From positions 1-64,000 of the forward strand of contig QCKE01000003.1 in NCBI GenBank assembly GCA_003215555.1: a DNA stretch of 64,000 nt, read 5' to 3'. A program made the translations under genes and the position numbers. Below are positions 5,896 through 30,051 of the stretch, in pieces. Every line of letters starts with the position of its first letter. Position 1 is the first letter of the stretch. The notes beneath the pieces are model-generated. The model was not told where the DNA came from. It made no database searches and saw only the letters and a list, made by a program, of their open reading frames with translations. Origin of the DNA: Prochlorococcus sp. AG-409-K04. GTDB lineage: Bacteria; Cyanobacteriota; Cyanobacteriia; PCC-6307; Cyanobiaceae.

Positions 5896-5906
5896 TTTTT
5901 ATAACC

Positions 5907-6158
5907 TCAACTACGTCCAATTTCATTTTCAAAGAACCAGTTTTTTGTTCCATCTGCAAGTTTAAGGACTACTCCAACACCTCCTCCATCAGTCATTTTA
6001 TAGTCTATGACTGTTGCTTTTGGGTCGGAGGATATTTTTTCAATTAAATTACCTGATATACGATCTTGAACTTTGTCCAGATCAATTTTTACTCTTGTTC
6101 CTATTTTTGTAAGGTTTACTAGTTGAGGCATGAGCTGTAAGTTCTTTGTTGTTGGCAA
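5907..6158 (-). CDS. Small conserved cyanobacterial protein (DUF2862-like)
   Basis: An 83-residue protein with no signal peptide or membrane segment. I recognise it as the small DUF2862-type protein found in cyanobacteria; this is from memory of the family. It alternates basic and hydrophobic stretches, with a short beta-rich core that reads like an SH3-type barrel (GTRVKIDLDKV near 21-31, the GGGVGVVLKLADGTKNWFF segment near 58-72). It sits immediately upstream of chlG on the same strand with an 11-bp gap and is divergent from hisF (32 bp). The operon position suggests coexpression with chlorophyll synthase, but no function can be read from the sequence. Confidence 0.75.
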   Translation of the reverse strand: MPTTKNLQLMPQLVNLTKIGTRVKIDLDKVQDRISGNLIEKISSDPKATVIDYKMTDGGGVGVVLKLADGTKNWFFENEIGRS

Positions 6159-25362: not shown

Positions 25363-26376
25363 ATGCTACTGGTTGAACTTCGGGAGCTGAATAAGTCTTA
25401 TGGACCTGTAAAGGCTCTGAGCAATCTAACGCTTGAAATCCCCAAAGGTTCTCTTTTTGGTCTTCTTGGTCCAAATGGATCAGGTAAAAGCACTACTCTT
25501 AGAATTCTTTGCACTTTATTGGCGCCAGACTCGGGGGAAGTCATTTTTGCTGGACAAAATGCTTTGAAAAATTCACGCGAAGTTAGAAGTAAGTTAGGGT
25601 ATGTTGCTCAGGAAGTGGCAATAGATAAGATTCTTACCGGTCGAGAATTACTTCAATTTCATGGAGATCTTTATCATTTACGCAGAGAATATCGAGACGA
25701 TCGTATTAAGAAATTAATCGAGTGTCTTGGTATGAGTAAATGGATTGATAGACGTTCTGGATCTTATTCGGGCGGGATGAGAAGACGACTTGATCTTGCT
25801 ACTGGATTGCTGCATGAACCTCAACTTTTGGTTTTAGATGAGCCTACAGTTGGCCTGGATATTGAAAGTCGCTCAATAATTTGGTCACTCTTAAAAGAAT
25901 TGAGAAGTCAAGGGACGACAATACTTTTGAGTAGTCACTATTTGGAAGAAATTGATGAACTTTCAGATCAGATGGCAATTGTGGATGTTGGTAAAGTTAT
26001 TGCGAAGGGTACGCCTGAGCAATTAAAAAATAAATTAGGTAATATTCGTGTAACGTTAAAAGTTCAGGAATTTAGCAACTTAGGCGAAGGCGAACGTGTC
26101 AGGCAATTAATAAATCATGTTGATGGTGTGAATGATGTTGTTATAAACAATTTTCAAGGGTTTTCGTTGAATTTCTTTTTAGATGATCCAGCTGTTATTA
26201 GGTTAGTACGTGACAAATTAGAAAGTGAAGGCTTTGAGATTTTCACCCTTTCTGAAAGTCGCCCTAGTTTAGATGATGTTTATTTGCAAGCCACGGGGAA
26301 AACGATAATGGATGCAGAGTTAGAGGTTGTAAGTACTAGAGATCTTAAGAAAGAAGCAAAACAATCAATGAGATAG
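25363..26376 (+). CDS. ABC-2 type exporter ATP-binding protein (CcmA/DrrA-like)
   Basis: ATPase of an export-type ABC system, likely for lipids, polysaccharide or a drug-like molecule. It has Walker A GPNGSGKST, signature YSGGMRRRLDLA, Walker B LLVLDEPTVGLD and the H-loop LLSSHYLEE. After about residue 225 a DrrA-type C-terminal domain (RVTLKVQEF...) follows, which in relatives binds the permease or sets specificity. The 337-residue length suits the DrrA/CcmA class. The permease gene begins 31 bp downstream on the same strand and the repeat protein gene follows it, so the three probably form one operon. Confidence 0.92.
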   Translation: MLLVELRELNKSYGPVKALSNLTLEIPKGSLFGLLGPNGSGKSTTLRILCTLLAPDSGEVIFAGQNALKNSREVRSKLGYVAQEVAIDKILTGRELLQFHGDLYHLRREYRDDRIKKLIECLGMSKWIDRRSGSYSGGMRRRLDLATGLLHEPQLLVLDEPTVGLDIESRSIIWSLLKELRSQGTTILLSSHYLEEIDELSDQMAIVDVGKVIAKGTPEQLKNKLGNIRVTLKVQEFSNLGEGERVRQLINHVDGVNDVVINNFQGFSLNFFLDDPAVIRLVRDKLESEGFEIFTLSESRPSLDDVYLQATGKTIMDAELEVVSTRDLKKEAKQSMR

Positions 26377-26407: not shown

Positions 26408-27268
26408 ATGAACACTACTCTTTCCACATCCACTTCTCAGACTTCAGTGAAGAACAATTCAAAATCTATTCAATTCATTCAGGAGGTCCAAGCATTGACT
26501 AGAAGACTGTTTATACAGCTATTGAGACGACCTTCTACTCTTGTTGCTGGGATATTACAACCTTTGATATGGCTTGTTTTGTTTGGGGCACTTTTTCAAA
26601 ACGCTCCTGTAGATTTTTTACCAGGTGAAATGGAATATGGAGAATTTCTAGGTTCAGGAATTATTGTTTTTACAGCATTTAGCGGAGCTCTTAATGCTGG
26701 GTTACCATTAATGTTTGATCGCGAATTTGGATTTCTAAATCGATTACTTGTTGCTCCTTTGCACAGTCGAAGTTCTATTGTTGTGTCATCAGTGATTTAT
26801 ATAGCATCAATTAGTATTTTACAGAGCTTTGCAATTATGGGAGTTTCCTCTTTGCTTGGTTATGGGTGGCCAAGTTTGTTGGGTACTTTGTTGGTGACAT
26901 TAACACTTATACTCTTAGTTTTTGGTGTAACAGCTTTGAGTCTTGGATTGGCTTTTGTCTTGCCTGGGCATATTGAGCTTTTAGCACTAATTTTTGTTGC
27001 TAACCTTCCGTTGCTTTTTGCAAGCACTGCTTTAGTTCCAATTTCTTTCATGCCTACATGGTTGGGCTGGCTAGCAGCCATAAATCCCCTTACCTTTGCT
27101 ATAGAACCTATTAGAGCTGCTTATAGCGGTTCGCTTGATTTAGGAACTGTTCTTGTTCATGCCCCTTATGGCGAAATAACAGGACACGGATGTTTGCTTC
27201 TGTTAAGCATTCTCACTATCGGACTGTTTTTAACCATTCGTCCACTTCTAAATCGCAAACTCCTTTAG
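26408..27268 (+). CDS. ABC-2 type exporter permease
   Basis: Integral membrane partner of the preceding ATPase. The 286-residue protein has a cytoplasmic N-terminus of about 45 residues (Ser/Thr/Asn-rich at the start), then about six helices. It shows the ABC-2 motifs FDREFGFLNRLLVAPLHSRSSIV and the C-terminal pattern PLTFAIEPIRAAYSG. The substrate is unknown. It begins 31 bp after the ATPase stop and is followed by the repeat-protein start 15 bp downstream. Confidence 0.9.
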   Translation: MNTTLSTSTSQTSVKNNSKSIQFIQEVQALTRRLFIQLLRRPSTLVAGILQPLIWLVLFGALFQNAPVDFLPGEMEYGEFLGSGIIVFTAFSGALNAGLPLMFDREFGFLNRLLVAPLHSRSSIVVSSVIYIASISILQSFAIMGVSSLLGYGWPSLLGTLLVTLTLILLVFGVTALSLGLAFVLPGHIELLALIFVANLPLLFASTALVPISFMPTWLGWLAAINPLTFAIEPIRAAYSGSLDLGTVLVHAPYGEITGHGCLLLLSILTIGLFLTIRPLLNRKLL

Positions 27269-27283
27269 CTATTGATTTTTATT

Positions 27284-28309
27284 ATGTCAACAGATTTTAT
27301 TTCTTTGCGGAAAGATCATCTCAGCTATCAGATCTCTAAAGCAATAGAATTTGATGAAAAAGAACAACTATTTGCTTTAAGAACCCAATGGGTTCATCGT
27401 TTTGGGATTGAAACTCTTCAAGATATCGAATCAAAAGAAGAAGTATTATCCTTTCCTGTTGAATCTGAACAAGAACTGAACATTTCTAAAGAGAATAATT
27501 ATGAGAAGGCTGCAGTTTTAGGAGAAGCAACTTCATTAATTAATGAAGTTGATAAAAGTGAAAATTCTATTGAGGCTTCAAGCTTAATTGAGAAGGTAGA
27601 GAATCCTCACTTATTGTCGAATCAAGAGCAGATAGATTTGTTTAAAAAGGAAGAATCCATAGAAACTCCTGTAGATGGAAAAAAAGATCAAGCTTTGCCA
27701 ATAAATAACAATGAAATAACAGAGCTATCTAAGCAGGAAGATATGTCAAATCGGGAAGAAAAGCTAGCCAATACATTAGATACCAATTTGATTGAATTTC
27801 TTCCCCCACCAGTGCCATCTTTGAATCATTGGCGACGTTGGCTAGGCTTTGTTGCTGAATCAAAAGAAGAAGTATTATCCCTTCCTGTTGAATCTGAACA
27901 AGAACTGAACATTTCTAAAGAGAATAATTATGAGAAGGCTGCAGTTTTAGGAGAAGCAACTTCATTAATTAATGAAGTTGATAAAAGTGAAAATTCTATT
28001 GAGGCTTCAAGCTTAATTGAGAAGGTAGAGAATCCTCACTTATTGTCGAATCAAGAGCAGATAGATTTGTTTGAAAAGGAAGAATCCATAGAAACTCCTG
28101 TAGATGGAAAAAAAGATCAAGCTTTGCCAATAAATAACAATGAAATAACAGAGCTATCTAAGCAGGAAGATATGTCAAATCGGGAAGAAAAGCTAGCCAA
28201 TACATTAGATACCAATTTGATTGAATTTCTTCCCCCACCAGTGCCATCTTTGAATCATTTGCGACGTTGGGTCCCGTTAATTGAATACGAAATGCCTAAA
28301 GCTTCCTAA
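27284..28309 (+). CDS. Unknown acidic protein with two nearly identical 143-residue repeats
   Basis: A 341-residue protein I do not recognise. Residues 1-48 form a probably folded N-terminus (QLFALRTQWVHRFGIETLQ). Two copies of a 143-residue unit follow, each rich in Glu, Ser, Asn and Lys, likely disordered, and ending in LPPPVPSLNH(W/L)RRW. Over 414 bp the copies differ at three bases, all amino-acid changing (F/L, K/E, W/L), so the duplication is recent or held identical by gene conversion. There is no membrane segment or signal. ATG at 27284 is used; the frame also opens with TTG at 27272. It starts 15 bp after the ABC-2 permease gene and may function with it. Confidence 0.8.
   Translation: MSTDFISLRKDHLSYQISKAIEFDEKEQLFALRTQWVHRFGIETLQDIESKEEVLSFPVESEQELNISKENNYEKAAVLGEATSLINEVDKSENSIEASSLIEKVENPHLLSNQEQIDLFKKEESIETPVDGKKDQALPINNNEITELSKQEDMSNREEKLANTLDTNLIEFLPPPVPSLNHWRRWLGFVAESKEEVLSLPVESEQELNISKENNYEKAAVLGEATSLINEVDKSENSIEASSLIEKVENPHLLSNQEQIDLFEKEESIETPVDGKKDQALPINNNEITELSKQEDMSNREEKLANTLDTNLIEFLPPPVPSLNHLRRWVPLIEYEMPKAS
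27428..27841 (+). repeat. Direct tandem repeat, copy 1 (414 bp, unit period 429 bp)
   Basis: Aligned base by base with 27857-28270 at a constant offset of 429 bp. There are only three mismatches, at 27452 (T versus C), 27644 (A versus G) and 27831 (G versus T). Fifteen unique bases (27842-27856) separate the copies. The period is a multiple of three, so the reading frame is kept. Confidence 0.97.
27857..28270 (+). repeat. Direct tandem repeat, copy 2 (414 bp, unit period 429 bp)
   Basis: Second copy of the in-frame duplication; mismatches to copy 1 lie at 27881, 28073 and 28260. After 28270 the sequence diverges completely into the C-terminal tail VPLIEYEMPKAS. Confidence 0.97.

Positions 28310-28332: not shown

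Positions 28333-30051
<1,719 letters not shown>

Follow-up and report, generated by a model that had tools for sequence, protein, structure and literature searches.

What is the gene that follows the ABC-2 exporter in the window (the whole 64,000-nucleotide stretch of Prochlorococcus sp. AG-409-K04 analysed here), and how did it come to contain the same 414 bp twice?

The doubled stretch and its surroundings

The locus comprises the following features, all on the forward strand:

25363..26376, +: ABC exporter ATPase (DrrA-like); PF00005 E 4e-31, TIGR01188 E 9e-88, under cut-off
26408..27268, +: ABC-2 permease (DrrB-like), directly upstream; PF01061 E 3e-32, TIGR01247 E 2e-34, under cut-off
27272: alternative start of the family gene, TTG
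27284..28309, +: 341-aa family member in which linker and C-terminal motif are doubled (ORF list, family alignment)
27284..27427, +: conserved N-terminal helical hairpin (R..L..QI.EA...QWVHRYG.ETL), single (AlphaFold, alignments)
27428..27841, +: first copy of the repeat, an acidic and disordered linker with LPPPVPSLNHWRRW at its end (TRF, direct comparison, pLDDT)
27842..27856, +: 15-bp joint (LGFVA), without a match in either flank or elsewhere in the assembly
27857..28270, +: second copy of the repeat, a linker with LPPPVPSLNHLRRW at its end (TRF, direct comparison)
28271..28309, +: ancestral C-terminal tail VPLIEYEMPKAS and stop, single (match to the family tail ...KAS)

TRF and direct comparison agree on two 414-bp copies, 27428-27841 and 27857-28270, at a period of 429 bp. 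The copies align without gaps over 414 of 414 positions and differ at three: 27452, T/C (F57L); 27644, A/G (K121E); and 27831, G/T (W183L). All three changes are non-synonymous (0 of 85 synonymous and 3 of 329 non-synonymous sites changed), a proportion that is not statistically surprising. The reading frame remains open throughout, from the ATG at 27284 to a stop that ends at 28309. An earlier note on this DNA had described an in-frame 429-bp tandem repeat with three non-synonymous changes, correctly to the base, and had rightly placed the start of the gene 15 bp past the permease stop at 27268.

The joint between the copies, CTAGGCTTTGTTGCT, encodes LGFVA. By direct comparison it agrees with neither outer flank, and a search of the assembly with up to one mismatch allowed found no second match that could be its origin. 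Inspection against the family tail gives agreement at 6 of 15 bases, close to chance.

The assembly is a draft (38 contigs, 75% complete, 1.41 Mb), of which 864 kb were scanned for direct repeats. The duplication lies far beyond chance: apart from one 98-bp contig-end match, those 864 kb contain no other direct repeat of at least 60 bp and at least 80% identity. (That match, 99% identical, pairs the end of contig C10 with a place 5.9 kb inside it, L192 1-98 versus 5897-5994, and is perhaps an assembly end effect.) Rarity, as the earlier note had it, therefore holds for the genome, where this is the only tandem duplication of at least 60 bp in the 864 kb scanned; the uniqueness that it implied does not, for the linkers of orthologues repeatedly expand. 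A 33-base piece of the repeat unit found no match in viral contigs, and the window's genome holds no second protein with the C-terminal motif.

Downstream, 24 bp past the stop of the repeat-bearing gene, lies the end of a convergent GroEL gene, whose Gly-Gly-Met tail is encoded at 28351-28410 by a perfect 9-bp tandem repeat of 6.7 copies. Promoter and terminator scans gave nothing exceeding shuffled background.

A picocyanobacterial family behind an ABC-2 permease

Judged by its sequence, the window gene belongs to a family conserved among marine picocyanobacteria (Cyanobiaceae). A genus search found relatives in 13 of 14 genomes, the window's own among them, and full-length relatives were obtained by reading the DNA downstream of the permease. 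Among named genomes the window protein as query retrieved no relative and a profile search retrieved 40; the named relatives belong to Prochlorococcus and Synechococcus. At the order level 166 of 299 sampled genomes match, and in a class-wide profile search convincing matches are confined to the family, those outside being marginal (E 0.0018 or worse). For the compared genomes we infer the clade labels, Cyanobiaceae and high-light, from named relatives and general knowledge.

Synteny is strict. Of the 168 loci with sufficient flanking sequence (some genomes give several loci), 168 have the permease immediately before the gene and in the same orientation; this leaves aside 20 loci whose excised stretches are too short upstream. 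An invariant [VA]HR[YF]G sits 97-129 nt past the permease stop in these 168 loci. The window gene likewise lies directly downstream of its ABC-2 permease, and the earlier proposal that position ties it to the exporter is supported by this gene order. Some relatives have the permease without the gene, so the pump does not depend on it in every case; at L045, an apparent loss, no family gene precedes the next ORF (N-acetylmannosamine-6-phosphate epimerase-like). The orthologues at L072 and L078 contain an internal stop codon (TAA and TGA, respectively), possibly decay or sequencing error.

Family proteins are mostly 120-235 residues long, with conserved ends and a variable middle in alignments. 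Their plan has three parts: an N-terminal helical hairpin; an acidic, disordered linker; and one C-terminal motif, PPxPSxxxLRRWLP...KAS. The window protein has the hairpin with the family's invariant R, L, H, R, and G; the acidic disordered linker; and the C-terminal PP...RRW...KAS pattern, with the motif present twice. AlphaFold places helices at residues 4-22, 26-40, and 42-55, with a mean pLDDT of 96 over residues 11-40, and gives values under 50 over much of the linker in both the window protein and a short orthologue. Across the family the linker has a median of 97 aa, with 24% D/E against 10% K/R; the earlier description, acidic and probably disordered, fits on both counts. Confidence is about 80 for the motif of copy 1 and about 52 for that of copy 2. 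This difference was not taken as docking of copy 1, because the alignment put orthologue motifs on copy 1 only, and that candidate was dropped.

A variant plan appears in G063, where a 446-aa ORF (L121 62-1402) has a related hairpin at its N-terminus and a similar ending, LRAWLP...RRAS, at its C-terminus, with a very long Pro/Ala-rich linker connecting the two.

Pfam and NCBIfam searches with the window protein gave nothing credible, and NCBIfam searches with 20 orthologues gave scattered chance matches only. The open-access literature, searched also for the assumed MED4 locus tags PMM0448-0451 and for Prochlorococcus tandem repeats, yielded no report on this gene. It is nevertheless not wholly unknown, as it was first described, since orthologues with a single unit are common behind the corresponding permease.

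Linker growth and a putative exporter tether

Elsewhere in the family the linkers have independently gained in-frame arrays whose sequences are unrelated among lineages. TRF, by which internal repeats were scored (self-BLASTP was uninformative, blank even for the window protein), finds ELKEQEPL 13.8 times in L126 (24-bp unit); a 12-residue acidic unit 7.6 times in L122 (36 bp); and further units of 78 bp in L131, 96 bp in L132, 48 bp in L130, and 72 bp in L048. In high-light Prochlorococcus a 14/15-residue unit (42/45 bp), (E)ENQEQISLIDEVHE-like, occurs, when its pattern is counted loosely, from none or one to about seven times. Outside the array L210 and L224 share 98.3% identity, yet they have about 7 versus 3 units. 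In all clear linker arrays (at least 90% match, unit of at least 15 bp) the period is divisible by three. Because single-contig genomes, G105 and G244 for example, are among the array carriers, the arrays are not just artefacts of fragmented assemblies.

Prochlorococcus genomes are small and repeat-poor, yet one conserved gene gains in-frame repeats lineage after lineage. Since orthologue linkers expand in frame again and again, tandem duplication appears as a habit of this gene; the window duplication is an extreme case of that recurrent process, and the largest found for this gene. The variable-number 42/45-bp repeat of high-light orthologues (L206-L211, L215-L254) is a candidate strain-typing marker.

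What might such a protein do? The earlier note had offered cargo as one option. This is unlikely: DrrAB-type ABC-2 exporters transport small molecules, and this protein is soluble and for the most part disordered. It may instead be an adaptor or a regulator. Chances are roughly even that the gene is a Cyanobiaceae-specific accessory of a DrrAB-like ABC-2 exporter, with a length-variable linker that a single recent duplication turned into a longer, bivalent tether. That the protein serves as an adaptor of the exporter, a role suggested by gene linkage, is proposed tentatively, at a little under even chances. Under such a scheme the hairpin and the C-terminal motif would be two putative sites of binding, of which one or both would contact the exporter at its cytosolic side. 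The linker would be a flexible cytosolic tether whose length and charge matter and whose sequence does not. In this lineage one recent event copied 414 bp, so that the protein, now of 341 residues, has two motifs and a single hairpin; slippage during replication or a template switch, leaving the 15-bp filler behind, is the most likely cause. The new allele might then be nearly neutral, or might raise avidity.

A plainer possibility, a minority view here though one of some weight, is neutral growth: a weakly constrained, disordered linker acquires and sheds in-frame units by slippage without effect, and the exporter is perhaps unrelated. The unit sequence is indeed different from lineage to lineage, lengths vary by a factor of two to three, and linker dN/dS is raised (0.3-0.8, high but below 1, in five pairs of short segments), although the last fits weak constraint and tuning alike. 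Against drift alone, the hairpin and motif are conserved while linkers change, linkers tend to remain acidic from one lineage to the next, and gene order with the permease is strictly kept. A stronger form of the tether proposal is itself unlikely: the acidic linker as a length dial, with repeat gain and loss tuning the exporter between strains and the window holding the first bivalent form. If it were true, every marine picocyanobacterial lineage keeping the gene would have a dedicated exporter tether.

Whatever its function, the family offers a natural series of linker lengths beside a conserved exporter, with which the importance of tether length could be examined. The window allele adds a natural construct with one hairpin and two motifs.

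Origin of the doubled allele and comparison with known systems

The duplication comprises the linker and the C-terminal motif; the hairpin and the KAS tail stay single. Orthologues have one linker and one motif. Two RRW motifs occur in 1 of 75 family members examined, the window protein, and the duplication is present in 0 of the 12 other gene-bearing genomes of the genus, which together argue that it is young. With no change at 85 synonymous sites, the copies must be young or freshly homogenised. The W of copy 1 is probably a derived state, given that orthologues mostly have F or L at the equivalent of residue 183. A search for orthologues carrying diverged versions of the window's unit, named beforehand as a refutation, found none, and the early judgement of a recent event stands. 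The duplication is very probably real, recent, and lineage-specific.

An older duplication, its 414 bp homogenised by gene conversion while the joint after copy 1 diverged, is improbable. Homogenised repeats with diverged edges would show this pattern, and LGFVA is vaguely like the family tail LP(S/L)(I/V)E; but the agreement of joint and tail is near chance, and no orthologue has two units. An artefact, in which the genome has one unit and single-cell amplification or graph resolution doubled it, is very unlikely: the draft is fragmented and incomplete and the named congeners are mostly single-cell genomes, but one template copied would not yield three spread differences and a unique joint, the 864 kb contain no other tandem duplication of at least 60 bp, and single-contig genomes, too, show the family to be a repeat hotspot.

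Three known systems invite comparison. The two genes upstream resemble DrrAB-type exporter operons (TIGR01188, TIGR01247). Both meet the general ABC and ABC-2 Pfam models and score below the specific cut-offs: the ATPase 294.5 bits against 312.45 for TIGR01188, the permease 119 bits against 223.05 for TIGR01247. A further difference is the downstream gene for the putative tether, particular to Cyanobiaceae.

The hairpin weakly resembles the IDEAL domain (PF08858) of UPF0302, which we take to be the ReoY/YpiB family: both are short helical hairpins with the pattern R..L..QI.EA...D...L. The top PDB match of the family profile is the UPF0302 protein 3do9 (E 0.0043, over 29 residues), and IDEAL is the Pfam match of lowest E-value in a few members (best E 1.2e-4, one member). 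At the locus, scores in all 14 genus genomes stay under the PF08858 gathering cut-off of 22 bits (best 17.4 bits, G003; no match in G000). Foldseek with the short-orthologue model returned nothing significant, 3do9_B ranking fourth (42 columns, rmsd 3.2, E 5.6). Because all matches fall under accepted thresholds, the likeness is a lead and does not amount to membership. Moreover, the family hairpin is N-terminal, whereas in 3do9 the hairpin is at residues 147-175 of 188, and the family lacks the UPF0302 domain. ReoY is the counterpart of YpiB and influences the level of MurA (PMC7286690).

The closest parallel for the repeats themselves is found in the aaTR proteins of Borgs, in which intragenic in-frame tandem repeats form disordered regions (PMC9879509). 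There, as here, rapidly evolving, independently arisen, frame-keeping repeats produce disordered segments (PMC9879509). The differences are that here the repeats arise again and again in one conserved, syntenic gene on the chromosome of a streamlined cyanobacterium, and that the window duplication includes a conserved terminal motif besides the linker.
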